DNA from: Acetobacter estunensis
GTDB lineage: Bacteria > Pseudomonadota > Alphaproteobacteria > Acetobacterales > Acetobacteraceae
Direction of reading: 5' to 3'
Assembly: GCF_011516945.1 (NCBI RefSeq)
Contig: NZ_WOTH01000008.1
Span: 1-64,000 of the forward strand
Length of the DNA: 64,000 nt
Part shown: piece by piece, positions 14,632 to 51,418 of the stretch
Position numbering within the stretch: position 1 is the first letter of the stretch
Layout: every line of letters starts with the position of its first letter
The notes under the pieces: model-generated
The model's input: only the letters and a program-made list of their open reading frames with translations
The model's database searches: none
Told to the model about the DNA's origin: nothing
Position numbers and translations under genes: made by a program

Positions 14632-14800
14632 GCATGCGGGTCGTGCGCCATAACGAGCTGACTGCCAGCCGGGACGTTGTGTCATCCTGATATTCGCCCT
14701 TCTTCTGCCGATCCTTGTCGCGTGCGGCCTGCCTCTGCTGCCCGGACGCTGGACGCACCTGCCGCCTGATCGGCAGACACAGATTGCTCAGGGCGCATGG

Positions 14801-16450
14801 TTGCTGGGTGCCCTGCTGGCGCTGGGACTTTTGCCGTGGAGCGGCAGTCCGGCGCGTTCGCAGTTGCCGGGGCTGGCGTTCAATACAGTTCAGGCGATTT
14901 TCTTCTTTGCTTTCGCCATGACCGGTCTGTGCGCGGAAAATCCAGCGGTGCCGGGACGACGGATTTCGCTGTCCTGCGGTGCGGCCTGTCTCGCAGCTTT
15001 GGCCGATCAGCCTTTCGTTCTGATGGGCAGCGGTTGCTGCGCGTTGCTGCTGACGCTTTCCGATCGGAGGGGCGGTGCGCGGGGGATGGTGCGGGCGTTC
15101 TTCTTTGCGGCGGCCTGTGGCGCGAGTGTGAGTGGAAAAGGCGATGGGTTGATGCTCATCGCCACATTGGCCTGCCTGCTTTCCGAAGCCCGCGCGGCGC
15201 CGGAGTTTACTCTCGCGCCATTGATGGATGCGGGCTGCGGCCTGTTGCTGCTGATCCGCACGCAGGTGGTGACCGCGCCACTTGGTCAGTCTGGCGCCGC
15301 GTTCGTTCTGCTTGCGCTGGGCATTGGGCTGGCGGCCCTTCGGCTCTGGCGCGCCCTTGCAACGCCGGAGTTTGGGCAGGCTGTCACCGGATTGGCCATG
15401 CTTCCAGCGTTGATAGGGGCCATGACATTGGCGCTGTTCGGGCTGGCCCATGACAGCGGTTCGACCCTGACAGCGCATGCGGCCCAAACCGCTCTGATCC
15501 TTGACTTCGTGGTGTTGTGGCCCGCAGCCGCCGCCTTTCTCGCGGCCTCGGCGCTGGTGCGTGAGGGCGCCGGGTCCGACCGTCTGAACGCCATGGGGGG
15601 AATGATCGGTCTTGCGCCACGGCTGGCGGCCATGTTCGCCGTCACGCTCGCGGGTCTGCTGCTTCTGCCGCCCACGGGTGGTTTTGTCGTGCTGTGGATG
15701 CTGGTCGAAAGTGCCCTCGGTCTTCTGCCCGATGGATTCACGGCGGCCCTTCCGTCGCTGGCTTTCCTGCTGGCGCTAGGTCTTGTGGTGGCGCTGGTGG
15801 CTCTCGTGGTGCTGCGACTGGGCATGCTGGTTCTGATGGGGGGAGCGAGACGTTCGCGTATGGCCGTCTGTCCCGATGCATCATGGTTTGCGTTGATGCC
15901 TGTGGCTCTGGCCGCAGGCTGCTCTTTCTTTCTCTCTCTTGTGCCCGGCCTCGTTCGTTGGCTTGCGGCCGCATCGGTAGAAGGTAAGGAAAAGCCCTCC
16001 ATCTTCGCACTGGGAGCGCCGGACGGATTGTCCTTCCTGCTTCCATCAGGCTTCATGACGCTGCTTTTTGTCCTGATCGGGGCTGTGAGGTTGGTGCAGG
16101 TACGTCATGAGACGCGGCTTGCCCACACGACAGCCGTTCGTCCGTCACCGTTTGGCAGCCATGAGAAGGAAGCGGCATCGCCTTGGCTGGGGGGGCTGGT
16201 TGTGTGCTCTCCTGTCTCACCTTTTGGAGAGCCGCTTCTCTGGCCGGGGGCAGACCTCGTTGTCTCCATTTTGCGGACAGTGTTTCGGCTTGAGCGCTTG
16301 CCAAAATGGCGGAAAGAGGGGCGATGGATGCCCGGTTCCCGTCATTTGTGGCGAAGGATACGACGCATATGGGGAGACGGCACACAGGCATCCGGCATCG
16401 TTCTGGCGCTGGTGGCCGTCGTGCTCTGTCTGGCGGCATGGTGGTCATGA
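14801..16450 (+). CDS. Hydrogenase-4 subunit B-like (HyfB/NuoL-M-type) membrane protein
   Basis: First gene of a six-gene coupled operon. It has about 549 residues from TTG 14801 and a dozen or more hydrophobic segments typical of the antiporter-like subunits of complex I and group 4 hydrogenases (GGMIGLAPRLAAMFAVTLAGLLLLPPTGGF). Translation probably begins upstream. In-frame codons from about 14687 encode LIFALLLPILVACGLPLLPG, a natural first membrane helix, but no ATG, GTG or TTG precedes it in frame before the stop at 14651. Sequence is poorly conserved compared with classical HyfB. The stop overlaps the next start as ATGA at 16447-16450. Confidence 0.72.
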   Translation: MLGALLALGLLPWSGSPARSQLPGLAFNTVQAIFFFAFAMTGLCAENPAVPGRRISLSCGAACLAALADQPFVLMGSGCCALLLTLSDRRGGARGMVRAFFFAAACGASVSGKGDGLMLIATLACLLSEARAAPEFTLAPLMDAGCGLLLLIRTQVVTAPLGQSGAAFVLLALGIGLAALRLWRALATPEFGQAVTGLAMLPALIGAMTLALFGLAHDSGSTLTAHAAQTALILDFVVLWPAAAAFLAASALVREGAGSDRLNAMGGMIGLAPRLAAMFAVTLAGLLLLPPTGGFVVLWMLVESALGLLPDGFTAALPSLAFLLALGLVVALVALVVLRLGMLVLMGGARRSRMAVCPDASWFALMPVALAAGCSFFLSLVPGLVRWLAAASVEGKEKPSIFALGAPDGLSFLLPSGFMTLLFVLIGAVRLVQVRHETRLAHTTAVRPSPFGSHEKEAASPWLGGLVVCSPVSPFGEPLLWPGADLVVSILRTVFRLERLPKWRKEGRWMPGSRHLWRRIRRIWGDGTQASGIVLALVAVVLCLAAWWS

Positions 16451-17433
16451 CCCTCTTCTGGAGCGTTCTTCTGACCCTGCTTCAACTGCTGCTCGTGGTC
16501 TGCCTCGCGCCGCTCTGTGCGGGATTGCGTGCGTCGTTCGGAGCGCGCTTGAGCGGTCAGCCTGCGCCGCCCATTCTGCGCCATGTTTTCATGCTGGGAC
16601 GGTTCTGGTCGCAGCCGGTTTCCCTGCCTCAGGGTGATCTGCCGCCGCTGTCACGGGAAATGGTGGCCCGGATCGCAGCACCGGTCGCGCTGGGGGCGGC
16701 TCTCACGGCATCGCTGCTGCTTCCAGCCTTTACCGTCAATCTTGTAACCGCTCCGTGGTCGGACGCGGTGCTGGTCGGTCTTCTTCTGGCATTTGCACGA
16801 CTTGCCACACGACTTTCCGCACTTGATCGTCCAGCGGCGGACACATTATGGGCTTTTGGTCGCGTGGTGGGAGAGGTGATGCTTCTGCCTGCGCTCCTGC
16901 TGCTGGTTGCGCTCCTGTTCAGTTCTGGTGCCACGACCGCCCTCGCTTCTGTTCTGGCAGAAGCCGCTGGAGGCAATCCGTTTGGAAAGGATGCGCCGCT
17001 CGTGCTTGCGGGGGGCGTGATCCTTATGTTCGCAGTCCGAGACCGCGAAGAGCGAGGGCTGGAAGGTTTGGGAGCGGATGCGGCGCTGCTGATGCTGGCA
17101 GAGGACGTGATGACTCTGGCGTGGATCACTTTGGCGACGGATCTGATGTGGCCGGCAGGGCTTCTGGCTTTTCATGAGGGAGCGCTGTCGTTTGGTGGCC
17201 TTGCTCTGGCGTTGCTGTGTTGGGTGGGGAGAGTTTCTGCCTTCTCGCTGCTGCTGGCTGCTGGCCGCGCGATTGTGATCACCCCTGTCACCGCGATGCG
17301 GCTGCGGGCGGCGGCTGCCCTTTTGCTCGCGCTTGTCGGTTTCCAGCTCATGACGGCTACACGTCTGGGAGTGGCCTCTGCTGTTCAGCCGGAGGCTCGC
17401 GTCCCGATGAATGGGCGAGGAAGCCCGCCATGA
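16447..17433 (+). CDS. Hydrogenase-4 subunit C-like (HyfC/NuoH-type) membrane protein
   Basis: A 328-aa integral membrane protein of the NuoH/HyfC family, which forms the membrane base of the electron-transfer module. Features include APLCAGLRASFGARLSGQ near residue 20, matching the quinone-site loop PLxxGxxRxxxARLQGR of the family. FAVRDREERGLEG lies mid-protein, where HyfC/NuoH carry conserved acidic residues, and PVTAMRLRAAAALLL is near the end. The start at 16447 is fixed by the ATGA overlap with the previous gene, although the frame is open from 16306. The stop overlaps the next start by four bases. Confidence 0.75.
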   Translation: MTLFWSVLLTLLQLLLVVCLAPLCAGLRASFGARLSGQPAPPILRHVFMLGRFWSQPVSLPQGDLPPLSREMVARIAAPVALGAALTASLLLPAFTVNLVTAPWSDAVLVGLLLAFARLATRLSALDRPAADTLWAFGRVVGEVMLLPALLLLVALLFSSGATTALASVLAEAAGGNPFGKDAPLVLAGGVILMFAVRDREERGLEGLGADAALLMLAEDVMTLAWITLATDLMWPAGLLAFHEGALSFGGLALALLCWVGRVSAFSLLLAAGRAIVITPVTAMRLRAAAALLLALVGFQLMTATRLGVASAVQPEARVPMNGRGSPP

Positions 17434-18047
17434 CCCTCGCCCTCGCGCTATTGCCATTCGCGGCACTTCTTGCACTGATCGCAGGACTTTCCGCAGTGCC
17501 GTTCGTGGGTCTACTGACGGCGCTCTCGATTGTTTTCGTGCGTCAGGGAGGACTGTTCTCTCTGGCTTGGCCCGTGGTCTTTGCCGCCGTCGTGGCGCTT
17601 ATTATCGCCACAGTCCCTGTCGGCTTGCTGGCAGGTTATGAGGAAGATGCAACGCCTTCCCGAAAGGCGGGCGCCTTGATTCTGGCGCTTCTTCTGCTCG
17701 TTGCCGCCAATCTTACAGTGCCCGTCGGGGATGTTTCGTTTTTTGCCGGTTCGCTGCCTGAATTCGTGAGGCCCGTCAGCGTTCCCGCTGTGACGGTGGC
17801 GCTTGGCGTGACGTTTGCCGGGCTTGCCACAATGGCGCTTCGTTCCGGCATTCGCCGCCAGCTTGCCGGGGTGCTGACGGCCTGCGATGGCGTACTATTG
17901 AGTGCTGTGAATACTCCCGATCCCTCTATGGCGTGGCTGGTCGGTGCATGTGTCCTTCTGGTGGCGGGCGCTGGAACCTGGCTTGCGCGGCGGTTGTCGC
18001 TTCTGCGGGAAAGACAACAGGTGCCGCATTCGGGAAAGATGACCTGA
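17430..18047 (+). CDS. Hydrogenase-4 subunit E-like (HyfE/NuoK-type) membrane protein
   Basis: A 205-aa protein, close to the length of E. coli HyfE (about 216). It has several membrane helices (LALLPFAALLALIAGL, ALILALLLLVAANL, VALGVTFAGLATMAL) and a basic C-terminal tail. Assignment rests mainly on position between HyfC-like and HyfF-like genes and on size, because sequence conservation is weak. The start is set by the ATGA overlap at 17430-17433; the earlier open frame from 17217 is out of context. Its stop shares one base with the next start (TGATG). Confidence 0.6.
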   Translation: MTLALALLPFAALLALIAGLSAVPFVGLLTALSIVFVRQGGLFSLAWPVVFAAVVALIIATVPVGLLAGYEEDATPSRKAGALILALLLLVAANLTVPVGDVSFFAGSLPEFVRPVSVPAVTVALGVTFAGLATMALRSGIRRQLAGVLTACDGVLLSAVNTPDPSMAWLVGACVLLVAGAGTWLARRLSLLRERQQVPHSGKMT

Positions 18048-19192
18048 TGCTCATGGCCGCCAATATTCTTCTGTTTTGCAGTCTTGCATGGCCGTTTCTT
18101 GCGGGCACGGTCGTGGCGGCGCTGGTGGGACGGGCCGGGGAAGGCGGTGAGAGCGCGCAGCGTCAGTCCCAGCTTGCCCCCAATCTGTCGCTGGTGGGTC
18201 TTGTCCTGATGGTGTTCGATATTCCCTGTGCGTGGTGGCTGGAGATACATGGCTTCGCGACGCAACAGGGATGGATGACGGAATCCTCGCTTGCGGTGAC
18301 GGGAGCGGTGGTGCTGCACGCCTCTCTGGTGTCGCGCTGCTTTGCGCCGCCCCGACGGGAGGATGCGCGGGCGCTCCTGTCACGCGATGCCGTGCCGTTC
18401 TGGACGACCGGCCTGCTTGTGCTGGCGTTGATGCTGTCTGCGCCCGTGGCCCGCGCGGCGATGCTGCTTTCAGCACCTGTTCTGGCTGTCATCCTGCTGG
18501 ACACCGGGGCGGGCTGCGCGCTCGTGGGATGGAATATGCTGCGTCGGAATGTGACGGGCACAGTGTTGGCGTTGACCGGGTTGCTGCATCCCAATCCCAC
18601 AGTTTCGGGACTGCTGACGGGATTTGGCATGATGCTGGTAAGCGGCCTCTGGCCTGCCTGCCTGCCTTCGCGTTCCAGTCCAATGCTTGAAAGTGTAAAC
18701 AGCGGAGAAGCTTTGCGTCTTGCCGCGGCCGCACTGATCACGGGTTCATTATTGACCGCAGCCCCTCAGTCGATGGAGGCGGCCCAAGCGTTTTCCTTTT
18801 TAATGATTGTGGCGGGTTTTCTGACGGTCGCGACAGCGTCCCTTCGCCTGCGCGTGGTCTCTGGGGAGAAGGCGGCGAGCCTTACTCTCGTCAGCATAGG
18901 TCTGGCAGCCATCGCGGTGGGGATCGGTGAGGCTCTTTTGGTCGATCTGGTTCTGTTCGGGCCGCTGCTGGCCGGACCGTGGCGCGACATGAAGGGGCGG
19001 GGACAGTGGAAGGTGGCGTGCCTTCTAGGTCTGCCTGTGCTTGGCACTACCTTGCTGATCGTGATGGTTCTCTCGGCCATATGGCCAACAGTCGGACTGG
19101 TGCTGGTGCTTGCCCTGACGCCAGCCTGGAAGCCGGTCTTGCGGTTCCTGCCATCCTTTCACGCCCGTATGGGTTCGGAGACATCGGGATGA
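18047..19192 (+). CDS. Hydrogenase-4 subunit F-like (NuoN/HyfF-type) membrane protein
   Basis: A 381-aa polytopic membrane protein with about ten helices. It occupies the place of HyfF but is shorter than E. coli HyfF (about 526 residues). Segments such as LTGLLHPNPTVSGLLTGFGMMLVSGLWP and AAALITGSLLTAAPQSMEAAQAFSFLM are reminiscent of the broken-helix region of antiporter-like subunits, though the usual charged Lys/Glu residues are hard to place. The start ATG at 18047 overlaps the previous stop by one base. The stop overlaps the next start as ATGA at 19189-19192. Confidence 0.6.
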   Translation: MLMAANILLFCSLAWPFLAGTVVAALVGRAGEGGESAQRQSQLAPNLSLVGLVLMVFDIPCAWWLEIHGFATQQGWMTESSLAVTGAVVLHASLVSRCFAPPRREDARALLSRDAVPFWTTGLLVLALMLSAPVARAAMLLSAPVLAVILLDTGAGCALVGWNMLRRNVTGTVLALTGLLHPNPTVSGLLTGFGMMLVSGLWPACLPSRSSPMLESVNSGEALRLAAAALITGSLLTAAPQSMEAAQAFSFLMIVAGFLTVATASLRLRVVSGEKAASLTLVSIGLAAIAVGIGEALLVDLVLFGPLLAGPWRDMKGRGQWKVACLLGLPVLGTTLLIVMVLSAIWPTVGLVLVLALTPAWKPVLRFLPSFHARMGSETSG

Positions 19193-20814
19193 GTCTGCCT
19201 CCCATTCTGTTTGGCGGGATTCTGCCCGTGAGGGAGGACGGGCGACCGTCAGTGCGACGCCTCATCCGTAGCGGAGAGAAAACATCCACGCCGTGGCGAT
19301 TCGAACTGGATGAGGATGGCTGGTACGAACTGGTAGAACGGCTGCGTGACGATCCCATCACCTTCATGGGGCTGTGGTGTGATGGCGTCCGCATCCATGC
19401 GCTGTTCAGTGAAAACATTCCGGGTGGGGACAGCCGATTGCGTCCCTTGATGGCCAGTCTCGTGCCCGATGGCCCGCGTTATCGTGGGTTGTCCTCCGTG
19501 CGGAGTGCAGCGTCGCCCTTCGAGCGCATGATCCATGACCTATGGGGAGTGGAAGCCATGGAAGCCGTCGATGTCCGGCCTCTGGTCGATCATGGCGCAT
19601 GGAGTGCCAACGCTCCTCTGTCCGCCCGGGCGGTTCCTTCATCGGAAGGGGCTGCTTCGTTCGTGTTCGAGGCGCCCGACCCAACTGTGACTGACAGGGG
19701 AATGATTCTGCCATATGGCCCGGCTACGGGTGGGATGGAGGGACCGGTTCATCACAGGTTGGGCGTCGTGGGCGGTCGTATTCGTACGGTGGAGACAGCA
19801 GGAGGATTTGCGCATCGCGGAGTGACGGCCCGAATGGTGGGCATGACGCCTGCTGCGGCTGTTGAACTGGCAGGACGCATCAGCGCGACGGCCACGGTTG
19901 CGCATCAGTGGACGCTTTGTATGGCGGTGGAGCATGCGCTGGGTGTGATGGTCCCGCCGACTGCCCAGTGTATGCGGGCCGTGCTGGCGGAGATCGAGCG
20001 CATCCACACGCATCTGACGTGGCTGGCGCGGACAGCACAGGCTGCGCGTGCCGATCTGGTGATGGGGCGTCTTTATCGAGCGCGTGAGACATTGGCGCGC
20101 TTATGCGCCAGCGTTCTGGGCAAACGGCTGTTGGTGGACACCATCATCCCCGGCGGGGTGCTGCTGTCGGGCCGGCCTGCGGAGGGGGCGGAGCTTGGAC
20201 TGCCGGCAGCGATGGCGCGTCTGGCAGACGAGATCGCGGCGTTTGATGAGCGTGAGTTTCCCGAAATACGCGCCCTGTGGCTGGCATCAGCCGGTTTGAT
20301 GGAGGTGTTGAGCGGCGCGGGGCACGTATCGCGAGAAGAGGCGGAAACCCTCACTCTGGGAGGGCCGGTGGGACGTGCGTGTGGACGCGGTCTGGATCTG
20401 CGCGAGTCTTACGATGCCTATGGCGCGGTGTCGCTGCGCACGCCGGTTCGGACGCAAGGAGACGCTCTGGCGCGATCCCTGATCCGGTTTGACGACATTG
20501 CCGAAAGTCTACGTTTGCTTGCGGCGTTCGCGCGTGAACTGGAAGGCCGCAAGGATGAGGGGCCCGGTGAAGTGTGCGCCCCGGTTCCAGCCGTCCTTGA
20601 AAGGGCGGCTGGATATGGCGCGGTAGAGGGACCATCCGGTCCGGTCTGTCACTGTGTGACGATGCAGGAGGGACGGATCGCGCAGGTTTTCGTGGCCGAT
20701 CCGGCCGCAATTCTGAGCATGACGCTTGAAAAAGCGTTGTCAGGGGCGCGTTGGGAAGAATTTGATGTGGTCAAATGCTCTTTCGGCGTTTCGGCTGCGG
20801 CGGCTGATCTGTAA
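19189..20814 (+). CDS. Hydrogenase-4 large-subunit-like protein (HyfG/NuoCD fusion) without Ni ligands
   Basis: A 541-aa fusion of a NuoC-like N-terminal part (about residues 1-135) and a NuoD/hydrogenase large-subunit part. GPVHHRLGVVGGRI, AVEHALGVMVP and EIERIHTHLTWLA align with the HycE/HyfG pattern. In [NiFe] enzymes the first Ni motif is ERVCGIC followed by His. Here the same place reads GRISATATVAH, with Ser232 and Ala235 instead of the two cysteines and His239 kept. The C-terminal DPCxxC motif is reduced to a single Cys in VVKCSFG. It therefore cannot hold a NiFe site and resembles the energy-converting-hydrogenase-related (Ehr) class or a NuoD. Confidence 0.8.
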   Translation: MSLPPILFGGILPVREDGRPSVRRLIRSGEKTSTPWRFELDEDGWYELVERLRDDPITFMGLWCDGVRIHALFSENIPGGDSRLRPLMASLVPDGPRYRGLSSVRSAASPFERMIHDLWGVEAMEAVDVRPLVDHGAWSANAPLSARAVPSSEGAASFVFEAPDPTVTDRGMILPYGPATGGMEGPVHHRLGVVGGRIRTVETAGGFAHRGVTARMVGMTPAAAVELAGRISATATVAHQWTLCMAVEHALGVMVPPTAQCMRAVLAEIERIHTHLTWLARTAQAARADLVMGRLYRARETLARLCASVLGKRLLVDTIIPGGVLLSGRPAEGAELGLPAAMARLADEIAAFDEREFPEIRALWLASAGLMEVLSGAGHVSREEAETLTLGGPVGRACGRGLDLRESYDAYGAVSLRTPVRTQGDALARSLIRFDDIAESLRLLAAFARELEGRKDEGPGEVCAPVPAVLERAAGYGAVEGPSGPVCHCVTMQEGRIAQVFVADPAAILSMTLEKALSGARWEEFDVVKCSFGVSAAAADL

Positions 20815-20865
20815 TATCACCGCGAAGAGCCAAGTGCGCTCTCCGCACCGTCGAGGAGGTTGCCC

Positions 20866-21366
20866 GTGTCCACCGTCCTGATCCGTGCTCTGTTCACATC
20901 GCTCGTGGCGCCTGCCGGACCCGCATTGCCGCCTGTCATCTCACGTTCGCCGCTGGTGCTGTTCCATGTGGACAGTGGTGGCTGCGAAGCCTGTGGACTG
21001 GAAGTGGAAGCTCTCATTCACGGCAATTACGGTCTTGCCGAAGCTGGAGTGAGCTTTGCCGATACGCCTCGGACGGCCGATATGCTGCTGGTTACGGGCG
21101 CTTATTCCCGTATGATGATGCCGGTCGTTCAGGCCGCATGGGAGGCGATGCCGCAGCCCAAGGGGTTGCTGGCGGTCGGGGCATGCGCTCTCGATGGTGG
21201 CCCGTTTGGAAAAAACTACGCCATGCTGGGCGGGTTGGAATCGCACGCATCGGTCGATTGCGCCATTCCCGGCTGCCCGCCCACGCCGCACGCCGTTCTG
21301 GAGGGCATCGTCAGCCTGCTTTCGCCTGCATCCGTCGTCCGACCGGTTGCTGCCACCGAAGAATGA
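20866..21366 (+). CDS. Hydrogenase-4 small-subunit-like protein (HyfI/NuoB-type [4Fe-4S] protein)
   Basis: A 166-aa NuoB/HyfI homologue and last gene of the operon. The proximal (N2-type) cluster ligands appear intact: GGCEACGLE gives Cys40 and Cys43, VGACALDGG gives Cys107 and PGCPPTP gives Cys137. GTG 20866 is chosen because GAGGAGG lies seven bases upstream; the in-frame TTG at 20860 is too close to it. A 51-base gap separates it from the large-subunit gene, the only gap in the operon. Intact cluster ligands beside a large subunit that cannot bind Ni suggest electron transfer to something other than protons, perhaps quinone. Confidence 0.82.
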   Translation: MSTVLIRALFTSLVAPAGPALPPVISRSPLVLFHVDSGGCEACGLEVEALIHGNYGLAEAGVSFADTPRTADMLLVTGAYSRMMMPVVQAAWEAMPQPKGLLAVGACALDGGPFGKNYAMLGGLESHASVDCAIPGCPPTPHAVLEGIVSLLSPASVVRPVAATEE

Positions 21367-48542: not shown

Positions 48543-49463
48543 ATGAGCAGCAAGTGCCTCGCTCCAGAAGCCCCAAGCCTGTGCAATGCGGAGCTTGTGG
48601 CGGTGGTATTCGATCTGGAAGCAATAGGAGAAGGCGAACTCACCCCCGGCGTTCTGACTGTGCGCGCGGGAGAGGCGCTTCCGTCTGGATCGTTGCGAAC
48701 GGATCATGCTTCCCTTCAGCGCGGTATGCGACATTGGGTGGAGAGCCTGACCGGTTATCGGCTGGGTCATACGGAGCAACTCTACACATTTGCCGATACA
48801 CTTTCCGTCGGGGACATCACGCGGCTTGTGCGGATTTCCTATCTGGCGTTGCTGCATCCCTCTGTCGATCCGCGAAACTGGCTGTCCATATATGAATATT
48901 TTCCATGGGAAGATCGACGGAAGGAGGGGGAGGCACATCAGGTGGGCAGCATCGCGCGTCGCATGATGGCGTGGGCATTGAACGATGCCACGCAGAGGAC
49001 GCGATGCGCTGTGGCGTTCGGTCTGGAAGGGCATGAATGGAACGACGAACTCGTACTCCAGCGCTATGAACTGATGTGGCAGGCGGGGCTTGTGCCGGAA
49101 TCACCTGACGGAGTGGGGGAGAATGCGATCGGTAGAGCTATGGAGCACGATCAGCGGCGTATCCTCGCCACGGCGCTTTCGCGTATTCGGGCAAAAATAC
49201 GCTACACGCCTGCCGTGTTCGATCTTCTTCCCGAACGGTTCACGCTTTTTGCCGTGCAGCAGGCCGTGGAGGCACTGGCGGGACGTCCGATGCACAAACA
49301 GAACTTCCGGCGGTTGCTGCTGGGGCAGCAACTGGTGGAGGAAACGGACTCGCTGGATTCCAATGGTCACGGTCGGCCCGCGCGATTGTATCGTTTCCGG
49401 CGCGATCATGTACAGGAGTGCTACCTGACGGGAGCGCGTCTGCCTTTGCCCTCATTGATCTGA
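48543..49463 (+). CDS. nadQ: NadQ-type regulator of NAD biosynthesis (Nudix-related, COG4111-like)
   Basis: A 306-aa protein with a Nudix-derived N-terminal domain (about 15-165; LVAVVFDLEAIGEGELTPGVLTVRAGEALPSGSLR, HTEQLYTFAD) lacking a recognisable Nudix hydrolase box, as in sensor-only regulators. The C-terminal winged-helix domain (about 200-300) has AKIRYTPAVFDLLPERFTLFAVQQAVEALAG and NFRRLLLGQQLV. NadQ and NrtR proteins have this build and repress NAD genes when pyridine nucleotides are plentiful. It lies 92 bases upstream of nadA, and a perfect palindrome in that gap is a likely binding site. Confidence 0.82.
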   Translation: MSSKCLAPEAPSLCNAELVAVVFDLEAIGEGELTPGVLTVRAGEALPSGSLRTDHASLQRGMRHWVESLTGYRLGHTEQLYTFADTLSVGDITRLVRISYLALLHPSVDPRNWLSIYEYFPWEDRRKEGEAHQVGSIARRMMAWALNDATQRTRCAVAFGLEGHEWNDELVLQRYELMWQAGLVPESPDGVGENAIGRAMEHDQRRILATALSRIRAKIRYTPAVFDLLPERFTLFAVQQAVEALAGRPMHKQNFRRLLLGQQLVEETDSLDSNGHGRPARLYRFRRDHVQECYLTGARLPLPSLI

Positions 49464-49497
49464 AGGGAGCCTCACGCGGACGTGGGGTGAGAGTGGC

Positions 49498-49525
49498 TTG
49501 TATTCGGTTGCGTGTCCTCTATATG
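49498..49525 (+). promoter_or_regulatory. Candidate nadA promoter overlapped by the NadQ operator
   Basis: TTGTAT at 49498-49503, a 16-base spacer, TATATG at 49520-49525. The -10 lies inside the left arm of the palindrome at 49516-49546, so a bound repressor would block RNA polymerase. Confidence 0.5.
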
Positions 49526-49546
49526 CTCAAAATGAGCATATAGAGG
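49516..49546. promoter_or_regulatory. NadQ operator palindrome
   Basis: CCTCTATATGCTCA at 49516-49529 and TGAGCATATAGAGG at 49533-49546 are exact inverted arms of 14 bases around AAA. The core TATGCTCA-N3-TGAGCATA agrees with my memory of the NadQ motif of alphaproteobacteria. It ends ten bases before the nadA ATG. Confidence 0.85.
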
Positions 49547-49555
49547 ACTTCACTT

Positions 49556-50536
49556 ATGGCCACGCTCGAACTGCCATCGCGGGACACACTCTTTGCACCG
49601 GTTGCCGGCCTGATGGCCCGTGCGGACTGGGAGCGGATGTTTGCCGAGGAGGTCGAGGCGATCCTGCGTCTCAAGCGTGAGCGTAATGCCGTGATCCTCG
49701 CGCATAATTACCAGACGCCGGAAATATTCCATGGTGTGGCGGATATTCGTGGTGACAGTCTCGCTCTGGCGCGGGAGGCGAGGGGGCTGGATGCCGAGGT
49801 CATTGTCATGGCGGGTGTCCACTTCATGGCCGAGACAGTGAAGCTGCTCAACCCGGACAGGACTGTCCTCATTCCCGATGCGCGGGCGGGGTGTTCGCTG
49901 GCCGAAGGCATCACAGCGGAGAATGTGCGGGCATTGAAAGCGGCGTGGCCCGGCGTGCCCGTCGTGACGTATGTCAACAGTACGGCGGCGGTGAAAGCCG
50001 AAAGTGACATCTGCTGCACGTCTGGAAATGCGCGCAGAGTTGTGGAAAGTCTCGGTGTCCCGCGTGTGATTATGATTCCCGATGAATTTCTGGCCCGTAA
50101 TATCGAGGCCGAGACAGGGATCGAGATGATTACTTGGCCCGCGCGTTGTGAAGTGCATGAGCGCTTCACACCGGATGAAATCCGGCAATATCGTCGCCTT
50201 CATCGCGGGGTGAGAGTCATCGCGCACCCCGAATGCCCTCCTGAGGTGGTGGCGGAAGCGGATTTCTCAGGATCGACCGCGCAGATGATTGCATATGTGG
50301 CGGAGAAGCGTCCGGAAAAAGTCCTATTGGTAACAGAATGTTCCATGAGCGACAATCTGAGCGCGCTCTATCCGGAAACGCGCTTTGTGCGTCCGTGCAA
50401 TCTGTGTCCGCACATGAAACGCATCACGCTTTCCCGTATCCGCGCGGCGCTGGAGACACTTCAGACCGAGGTCCTGATCCCGGCTGAATTGCAAGCACCA
50501 GCCCGTCGATCTGTCGAGCGAATGCTGGCTGTCTGA
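49556..50536 (+). CDS. nadA: Quinolinate synthase
   Basis: A 326-aa [4Fe-4S] enzyme that condenses iminoaspartate with dihydroxyacetone phosphate. NYQTPEIFHGVADIRGDSLALA lies near residue 50. The three cluster cysteines lie in AGCSLAEG, CCTSGN and PCNLCPHMK. Its partner aspartate oxidase (nadB) is not in this cluster; nadC follows directly. No Shine-Dalgarno is obvious before the ATG because the operator fills the leader. Confidence 0.96.
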   Translation: MATLELPSRDTLFAPVAGLMARADWERMFAEEVEAILRLKRERNAVILAHNYQTPEIFHGVADIRGDSLALAREARGLDAEVIVMAGVHFMAETVKLLNPDRTVLIPDARAGCSLAEGITAENVRALKAAWPGVPVVTYVNSTAAVKAESDICCTSGNARRVVESLGVPRVIMIPDEFLARNIEAETGIEMITWPARCEVHERFTPDEIRQYRRLHRGVRVIAHPECPPEVVAEADFSGSTAQMIAYVAEKRPEKVLLVTECSMSDNLSALYPETRFVRPCNLCPHMKRITLSRIRAALETLQTEVLIPAELQAPARRSVERMLAV

Positions 50537-50557
50537 ATGCAGGGAAGGAGAACGGAG

Positions 50558-51418
50558 ATGAGAGTGCCTTATCTTCCCGATGTCATGTGGGAGCCGATCG
50601 TTCGTCGTGCGTTGCTGGAGGATTTTGGCATCGGCGGGGACGTCACGACAGAGGCGTTGGGATGCGCTGACAGGGCCGTGGAAGCGCGGTTTGTCGCCCG
50701 GCAGGCGGGAATGGTTGCTGGGCTGTCTGCCGCTCGTCTGGCATTTGTGTTGCTCAATCCCTTCGTGCGTTTTGAGATCGGGATCAAAGATGGTGACAGG
50801 ATCGAGGCGGGGGATGTGCTGGCGATCGTGCAGGGACCGGCTCGCGCGGTTCTGGGCGGTGAGCGCACGGCGCTTAACCTTTTATGCCATCTCAGTGGAA
50901 TTGCATCGACCACGCGCAGCATTGTCGATCTGGTGGAAGGGACAGGTGTGCAGGTGTGCTGCACGCGAAAGACTTTGCCCGGACTGCGCGCGGCACAGAA
51001 ATATGCTGTGTTGGCAGGAGGCGGCTCCAATCACCGCTATCGGCTGGATGATGCCATTCTCATCAAGGACAACCACATCGCCTTGTGTGGCGGCAGCGTC
51101 GTCGCGGCAGTGAATGCTGCTCGTCTGCGCGCGGGACATCTGATGAAGGTGGAATTGGAGGTGGACACGCTGGAGCAGCTTGAAGTGGCTTTGGCGCATG
51201 GTGGCGTGGATGCGTTTCTGCTCGACAACATGACGGTCGAACACCTTCGCGAAGCCGTGCAACTGATCGGTGGGCGGGCCATCACGGAAGCGTCCGGCGG
51301 GATCACGCCTCACACAGTCCGCGCAGTGACGGAAACAGGTGTGGATGTGATCTCGCTGGGTTGGCTCACGCAGAACGTGACGGCGCTGGATATTGGTCTG
51401 GATATCGTGGAAAGTTGA
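50558..51418 (+). CDS. nadC: Nicotinate-nucleotide diphosphorylase (quinolinate phosphoribosyltransferase)
   Basis: A 286-aa enzyme that converts quinolinate and PRPP to nicotinate mononucleotide. Signatures: LLEDFGIGGDVTTEAL near residue 14, ERTALNLLCHLSGIAT-type helix, TRKTLPGLRAAQKYAVLAGGGSNHR, LIKDNHIA, VELEVDTLEQ and ASGGI. ATG 50558 follows AAGGAG; the frame is open from 50537 but the added residues are not family-like. It ends at a bidirectional terminator shared with oprB. Confidence 0.96.
   Translation: MRVPYLPDVMWEPIVRRALLEDFGIGGDVTTEALGCADRAVEARFVARQAGMVAGLSAARLAFVLLNPFVRFEIGIKDGDRIEAGDVLAIVQGPARAVLGGERTALNLLCHLSGIASTTRSIVDLVEGTGVQVCCTRKTLPGLRAAQKYAVLAGGGSNHRYRLDDAILIKDNHIALCGGSVVAAVNAARLRAGHLMKVELEVDTLEQLEVALAHGGVDAFLLDNMTVEHLREAVQLIGGRAITEASGGITPHTVRAVTETGVDVISLGWLTQNVTALDIGLDIVES

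Follow-up and report, generated by a model that had tools for sequence, protein, structure and literature searches.

The stretch analysed here, referred to as the window, comprises 64,000 nucleotides of Acetobacter estunensis (Acetobacteraceae; NCBI RefSeq assembly GCF_011516945.1, contig NZ_WOTH01000008.1, positions 1 to 64,000 of the forward strand). Frame reading between parC and pssA gave six plus-strand genes in the order HyfB-C-E-F-G-I, related to subunits of hydrogenase-4 and complex I, with no NADH-oxidising module among them. A preliminary description, made from the letters alone, had seen in them a six-gene operon of the Ehr kind, and both content and order were borne out by profiles and by the same B-C-E-F-G-I order recovered in relatives through iterated profile searches. 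As it had also stated, HyfA, HyfD and HyfH are not among the genes of the operon. The claim that nearly all genes overlap by one to four bases holds for four of the five junctions (4, 4, 1 and 4 bases), whereas HyfG and HyfI lie 45 bases apart. The features are listed below, "complete" designating a type of relatives defined further on and TM standing for transmembrane helix.

About 14684..16450, plus strand: HyfB/EhrA-like antiporter-type subunit, channel residues apparently lost (profiles, alignment, AlphaFold2 model; start uncertain)
15692..15694, plus strand: Leu codon at the HyfB TM12 Glu/Lys position (PPTGGFVVLW; GFxxEW in complete relatives; alignment, motif)
16447..17433, plus strand: HyfC/EhrB (NuoH-like) subunit without E-channel residues (profile, alignment)
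17430..18047, plus strand: HyfE/EhrC-like membrane subunit (profile, alignment)
18047..19192, plus strand: HyfF/EhrD-like antiporter-type subunit, short, channel residues apparently lost (profile, alignment; model and fold match weak)
19189..20814, plus strand: HyfG/EhrL large subunit (30 kDa + 49 kDa-like) without Ni ligands (Pfam, alignment, tree)
19882..19893, plus strand: Ser232...Ala235 replacing the first Ni-ligand CxxC (alignment)
20785..20802, plus strand: G533, S535 and A538 replacing the canopy Asp and the C-terminal CxxC (alignment)
20860..21366, plus strand: HyfI/EhrS (NuoB-like) small subunit with four [4Fe-4S] cysteines (Pfam, alignment)

As read from the alignments, the same bacterial family holds two kinds of this complex, a complete type and a disarmed lineage to which the window belongs. 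In the window, the sequence shows the loss of the [NiFe] site, of three active-site proton residues, of the E-channel residues of HyfC and of the antiporter Glu/Lys of HyfB and HyfF, while the six-gene set, the cluster cysteines of HyfI and purifying selection are retained. The complete type, with 27 loci (e.g. in Dankookia, Roseomonas and Limobrevibacterium), lacks Ni ligands and keeps its ion machinery. The remaining 56 loci consist of 6 early-branching, 7 intermediate (Rhodopila/Acidisphaera and relatives), 19 other acetous and 24 Acetobacter ones. These counts include three identical pairs (L093=L118, L045=L096, L043=L105) and five short loci without part of the operon (L098, L111, L112, L114, L136), L094 beginning inside HyfC; for the conservation counts, 17 of the 24 Acetobacter and 11 of the 27 complete-type loci were taken.

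Pfam families were matched by HyfG (Complex1_49kDa, 9.9e-19) and HyfI (Oxidored_q6, 2.5e-22), none being found for HyfB, HyfC, HyfE and HyfF at E 0.1. HyfB matched the NCBIfam hydrogenase-4 subunit B weakly (3.3e-5), and PF00146 was matched by the complete-type HyfC of G044 but not by that of the window. PDB profile matches of HyfG and HyfI were Mbh, formate hydrogenlyase and complex I chains. The AlphaFold2 model of HyfB, with a mean predicted local distance difference test (pLDDT) of 58 and a predicted template modelling score (pTM) of 0.61, had E. coli HycC as its best match (7z0t_C; TM-score 0.65, E 2e-8), followed by other antiporter-like subunits. That of HyfF (pLDDT 56.5, pTM 0.49; best Foldseek E 0.037, the top 18 matches being complex I-type subunits) was too weak and was not used. 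The input alignments of both models contain complete-type rows, which aid the fold. The nearest named genome found was that of A. estunensis AV380, its HyfG being 94% identical to that of the window.

Concerning the large subunit, alignment with three references that double as positive controls (E. coli HycE and HyfG, plus L070, an intact group 4 hydrogenase from within the family) places Ser232, Ala235, Ser535 and Ala538 at the four Ni-ligand positions, which confirms the earlier statement that the first CxxC is replaced and the C-terminal one lost, and agrees with its expectation of no hydrogen chemistry. The four columns are free of Cys in 26 complete-type, 6 early-branching, 7 intermediate and 19 other acetous rows; among the 22 Acetobacter rows, one column holds a Cys in six and two columns in none. 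The equivalents of HycE H188, R478 and D529, the three active-site proton residues lost in the window, are missing from 22, 22 and 21 of the 22 Acetobacter rows, respectively, whereas those of H284 and R395 are kept in all 22 and that of E437 as Glu (13) or Asp (9). R478 is still present in 13 of the 19 other acetous rows, and both H188 and R478 in the complete-type HyfG of Roseomonas (L109), Dankookia (L102) and Limobrevibacterium (L105). HypD was not found in the window's genome (G000), nor was a second intact hydrogenase large subunit, the other two 49 kDa-type subunits being complex I NuoD and NuoCD. The absence of HypD is not a watertight test, because G113 (88% complete), the source of the intact hydrogenase L070, likewise had no match. 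HypD was present in 2 of 14 genomes, G156 and G157, both reduced Acetobacter genomes (1.5 and 1.7 Mb), unlike the 12 others examined; a real hydrogenase may therefore exist there beside the disarmed complex.

As for the membrane subunits, alignment-free counts gave the antiporter-Lys motif in 24 of the 27 complete-type loci (twice in 20) and in none of the 56 others. The HyfC loop E..RIP.DNP was found in 25/26 complete-type vs. 0/52 other loci having a HyfC match, and the HyfE motif SLEN in 25/26 vs. 1/44 having a HyfE match. In the HyfB alignment, equivalents of NuoM E144, K234, K265 and E407 are all present in 11/11 complete-type rows and absent from 17/17 Acetobacter and 5/5 other acetous rows (the exception among HyfB rows, one Lys in L128, falls outside the motif); those of HycC E391, K239, K336 and E135 show the same 11/11 vs. 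0/17 and 0/5. Around TM12, 20 of 23 Acetobacter HyfB retain the GF and W of the GFxxEW anchor, and all 20 have Leu, Phe, Ile or Val where the Glu would be; the other three lack the anchor. An initial TM12 pattern misfired on PPEGW-like stretches of complete-type rows; with the stricter pattern used instead, the 27 complete-type HyfB had Glu (21), Ala (2), Ser (1) or no motif (3). All 11 complete-type HyfF rows have both the TM5 Glu and the TM7 Lys, and the Lys occurs in 0/17 Acetobacter and 0/6 other acetous rows. Complete-type HyfC has equivalents of HycD E130, E138, E189, E203 and E206 in 11/11 rows; E138 is absent from 17/17 Acetobacter and 6/6 other acetous rows, and HyfC of the window lineage has lost the entire loop bearing the equivalents of E199/201/203. 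According to the available text of PMC9474812, H2 production in E. coli fell by 98% in the HycD E138 mutant and by 99% in the E199/201/203 mutants. The preliminary description's proton- or sodium-linked complex finds no support at the residue level, as the ion-carrying or gating residues are absent from HyfB, HyfC and HyfF of the window and kept in relatives of the same family.

Conserved charged columns are far fewer in the acetous rows (22-23) than in the 11 complete-type ones: 2 against 40 in HyfB, 0 against 22 in HyfF, 6 against 32 in HyfC and 1 against 17 in HyfE. The acetous set is also the more divergent, which accounts for part of the difference. In the intermediates, neither the HyfB residues nor the HyfC loop are left, but HyfC R46 is kept in 7/7 and the E157 equivalent in 5/7 rows. 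For these two residues the alignment was used, two loose patterns being unspecific: that for R46 hit 24/26 complete-type, 4/5 early-branching, 4/7 intermediate, 6/17 other acetous and 7/23 Acetobacter rows and missed hydrogenase L070, and that for E157 picked up unrelated stretches. One complete-type locus, L110, comes from a metagenome-assembled genome titled Asaia bogorensis, despite the acetous genus, and its label is suspected.

Lysine was counted over the profile-matched parts of the subunits rather than over whole frames. None was present in 2,021 residues of Gluconacetobacter entanii (L116; recovered parts of all six subunits) or in 2,008 residues of L037 (all six subunits), and a single one each in L036 (1,968 residues), L040 (1,946) and Novacetimonas hansenii L099 (2,043). 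The neighbouring pssA and psd of the L116 locus hold 6 lysines each, and those of L037 together 12 as well; the depletion relative to pssA+psd is significant (Fisher p 2e-9). By comparison, the six subunits of the window hold 18 lysines, and complete-type HyfB alone 4-7, four of them conserved in 11/11 rows. In all five depleted loci the near or total loss extends to the soluble HyfG, for which loss of pump residues provides no reason.

The small subunit HyfI is the most conserved, with 67% identity within the genus. Its cluster cysteines are C42, C45, C109 and C139 when numbered from TTG 20860; the Cys40, 43, 107 and 137 given earlier are the same four residues counted from GTG 20866. They include a CxxC at the cluster, where the NuoB of the same genome have adjacent CC. 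Taking every kind of locus together, 78 of 79 have all four, as do 42/42 acetous loci. In five genomes HyfI lies outside the operon (G022, G037, G046, G085, G008; some matches cross a stop codon). In four genomes it stands just ahead of NrtR and close to NadB (L142 6321-11244, L143, L140 and L144), the Pfam run in L142, where alone NadA and NadC were tested, being HyfI, NrtR, NadA, a FAD protein (NadB) and NadC; in L062 and L064 the HyfI-NrtR pair also adjoins HyfG. The relocation seems to have happened once, in a single subclade. The window itself carries, at 48543-51418, an NrtR (family match) followed by NadA- and NadC-like genes named by eye, with no nadB between them. A role in NAD synthesis was considered from this neighbourhood and rejected as general, since the presence of NrtR and NadB does not track the complex: NrtR was not found in G030, G037 and G070, where the complex is nevertheless present, and no NadB above about 350 bits was found in four Acetobacter genomes (the split from SdhA was set by the analyst between about 350 and 400 bits, and one match alone passed the curated cut-off).

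The ratio of non-synonymous to synonymous substitutions (dN/dS, Nei-Gojobori) was calculated for 20 chosen pairs, HyfB being missing in four and HyfI in two, and one HyfI dS being saturated. It ranged from 0.01 to 0.38 in ten Acetobacter pairs, from 0.09 to 0.44 in seven further disarmed pairs and from 0.16 to 0.49 in three complete-type pairs, with HyfI lowest or equal lowest in every disarmed pair where it was measurable. By these ratios the disarmed complex appears to be under purifying selection and not decaying. Within the genus, however, identity rises from 34% for HyfB (16 loci) only to the 67% of HyfI, as compared with 87% for parC (11 of the 16 loci), 79% for pssA and 78% for psd. With dN/dS low and identity nonetheless low, the sequence therefore drifts fast within constraint, and the low conservation of the membrane subunits, taken before as a sign of long divergence, is better termed fast evolution.

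Within the genus, 44 of 49 genomes have one full-length open copy of HyfG, including those of 1.5 and 1.7 Mb. Four have fragments (G139, G145, G148 and G160), split into two frames in G139 and G145, and in G153 (68% complete) NuoD alone was found among HyfG-type matches. About 97 of 120 family genomes have a match of at least 75 bits, above the NuoD matches, of which a few may be true hydrogenases. In the large-subunit tree (85 rows, HyfG pieces under 420 aa dropped, without the Ehr of Geobacter and Mycobacterium), the acetous rows form a clade of 41 (support 100/100, stem 0.68) which sits among the Ehr of the family, apart from NuoD and HyfG, and joins the intermediate group (95/72), the complete-type rows lying outside. 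Support is weak for several of the deeper branches, and long branches come together. The tree order, together with intermediates that lack the HyfB residues and HyfC loop yet keep HyfC R46 and E157, suggests a stepwise disarming along one vertical line. Complete and disarmed complexes occur together in G099 (L045, L068) and G062 (L067, L066).

No match to NuoB, NuoH or NuoD was found in six near-complete genomes of 1.9-2.6 Mb from five genera (G070, G118, G061, G032, G054 and G101), all of which keep HyfG and HyfI; the three represented in the tree all fall inside the acetous clade. In G066 neither was found. The window's own genome has two separate complex I gene sets with NuoD, NuoB and NuoH matches, on C12 at about 44-51 kb and on C1 at about 6-14 kb.

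The beginning of the operon could not be upheld at 14660, where there is no ATG, GTG or TTG, the earliest in-frame one being TTG 14801. In the window (14671-14690) as in Acetobacter relatives, hyfB has none of these codons near its apparent beginning, and in the relatives an Ile codon often lies about 9 bases past a GGGAC/GGACA-like stretch; a pattern search gave such codons in 16 of 29 rows (9 ATC, 2 ATA, 5 ATT), the window being judged by eye. A possible start of hyfB, perhaps a rare non-AUG one, is the Ile codon at 14684. ARAGORN also reported a tRNA-Arg(CCT) at 16862-16938, within the hyfC frame, probably a false match.

With most known active-site and pump residues gone and one cluster site left, the complex probably has another task in the membrane than its hydrogen-making, ion-pumping relative. 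We favour, tentatively and without calling it probable, the reading that the complex is a disarmed Ehr, i.e. a non-pumping, membrane-anchored one-cluster Fe-S module relaying electrons. The membrane subunits would provide a hydrophobic anchorage for the HyfG-HyfI head, itself a redox module that does not pump and through whose one [4Fe-4S] cluster electrons would pass between a presumed soluble partner and the membrane quinone pool, with neither H2 chemistry nor ion translocation. Several points weigh against this. Ala233 of HyfG stands in place of the quinone-site Tyr of complex I, so that quinone binding can only be supposed. The HyfI of L051 (G100) lacks three of the four cluster cysteines, apparently a further disarming step. 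The HyfF TM5 Glu persists in 4/17 Acetobacter rows (the window not among them), HycD R108 and E206 equivalents survive in 8/17 and 6/17, and HyfB R191 and R377 and two invariant HyfC Asp remain; a crude count of buried charges (charged residues in hydrophobic context), later replaced by conserved-charge and motif counts, gave no separation of the groups. A new ion path is thus possible, as some charges persist and that count does not separate the groups. The reference residues also have their limits: even complete relatives have Glu at one of HycD E199/201/203 (E203), with His at 201 and Ala or Ser at 199; HyfE is a weak witness, since its Glu marker is absent from E. coli and L070 HyfE too; and HyfB of 13/19 other acetous loci, having no profile match, stands outside the alignment. 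In 8 of 10 divergent loci a hydrophobic frame, beyond profile reach, lies at the place expected for HyfB. Moreover, in the available text of PMC9474812, E. coli HycC E135, K239 and K336 mutants made normal H2, and the TM7 Lys position is occupied by Leu in HycC, so these antiporter residues are not required for every function of such complexes.

The most serious competitor, though an unlikely one, is a structural or assembly role, in which other respiratory proteins would use the complex as a scaffold or platform in the membrane, its cluster being structural. The few conserved charged columns of the membrane subunits and the cysteine loss in L051 agree with it, as does the structural role proposed, in the available text of PMC10715153, for a degenerate bc1 complex of the same family; on the other hand, the cluster cysteines are kept in all 42 acetous loci and HyfI is the most conserved subunit. 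Such a scaffold cannot serve complex I alone, because the six near-complete genomes without complex I matches keep the complex. That the HyfI cluster signals redox state or oxygen via HyfG to a regulator or enzyme seems improbable: it is the one redox centre left and lies beside the NAD regulator NrtR and nadB in four genomes, but the complex persists where NrtR or NadB was not found, and the relocation looks like a single event. Electron relay is accordingly preferred over scaffold, and scaffold over sensor. Even less credit goes to the redox-driven proton or sodium pump of Ehr type proposed earlier; homology, the antiporter-type HyfB fold, some conserved charges and the TM5 Glu of a few HyfF rows speak for it, whereas the known channel and E-channel residues are absent from window HyfB, HyfC and HyfF and a named species, G. 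entanii, has a lysine-free version. Decay of an operon being lost is very improbable, the fast divergence and the two-frame HyfG of G139 and G145 being set against low dN/dS in all six genes, full-length HyfG in most Acetobacter genomes and retention in small ones. We give equally little weight to an alignment artefact, with the residues present elsewhere in the subunits: membrane subunits are just 20-31% identical to more distant homologues, yet alignment-free counts concur, the GFxxEW anchor holds in most Acetobacter HyfB, and zero lysines cannot be misaligned.

Ion pumping is the usual reading of complex I relatives that have antiporter-like subunits. With the relay reading, the wider claim, possible but also short of probable, is that within one bacterial family a whole complex I-type machine has turned into a membrane device that no longer transduces energy and of which just the Fe-S cluster site and the architecture are left. 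It would be a 'null' of the superfamily made by nature, and important enough to have outlasted both the shrinking of genomes and the disappearance of complex I. Some lineages of one family have this six-gene complex with its pump residues and others without, selection on the two being similar and culturable food bacteria being among the hosts; this makes it testable what Ehr do besides pumping and what the head group does once pumping and hydrogen chemistry are gone. As a caution, hydrogenase-4 annotations in acetic acid bacteria should not be taken literally. Degenerate respiratory enzymes have been described in the same family (PMC10715153), the available text of which does not mention 'hyf'; among the matches listed, no open-licence paper dealt, by its title or the opening of its abstract, with this complex in acetic acid bacteria or with Ehr lacking channel residues, and the available text of PMC11540253 and PMC3426403 concerned other matters.

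With the Q-module and membrane arm of respiratory complex I, the window's complex shares NuoB/C/D/H/L/M/N homology, but at the cluster it has CxxC where complex I has CC, its operon includes no NADH module, and the quinone Tyr and the channel residues are missing; the buried Glu/Lys pairs of Mrp antiporter subunits are not found in it either. Large, small and membrane subunits are homologous to those of E. coli formate hydrogenlyase (Hyc) and hydrogenase-4 (Hyf), HycC being the best fold match of HyfB, but the [NiFe] ligands, ferredoxin subunits and E-channel are absent, and of what marks a [NiFe] group 4 hydrogenase neither the two Ni-binding CxxC motifs nor HypD for the Hyp maturation genes was found. 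Pyrococcus MBS/Mbx, whose ion modules are intact, is likewise related to complex I, lacks Ni and has a membrane arm of the antiporter-like kind. It was matched by the HyfG profile and the HyfB model (6u8y) and differs in reducing sulfane sulphur, according to the structure title.

By composition and the missing Ni site, the complex is best classed with the Ehr, as first proposed. Homologues of the six Ehr subunits are present here as HyfB, C, E, F, G and I. The Geobacter Ehr cluster and M. tuberculosis Rv0082-Rv0087, compared by description only, resemble the window's complex in their antiporter-like, HyfE-like, large and small subunits and the lack of Ni ligands, and the window differs in the absence of channel residues from HyfB, HyfC and HyfF, so that its antiporter-like subunits do not appear ion-translocating at the residue level, with the fold present for HyfB. 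In the available texts, the make-up of Ehr is given in PMC7894505, their large subunit is without Ni ligands and their reaction unsettled (PMC7894505, PMC6728331, PMC6349859), the function being undetermined in M. tuberculosis (PMC6728331) and uninvestigated in Geobacter (PMC7894505), and a coupling of redox to charge transport by way of the antiporter-like subunits is considered probable (PMC6349859). The complete-type Ehr of Roseomonas, Dankookia and Limobrevibacterium share with the window the gene order, the loss of Ni ligands and the HyfI cluster, and differ in having kept the antiporter Glu/Lys/Lys/Glu, the HyfC E130/E138/E189/E203/E206 and the H188 and R478 equivalents.

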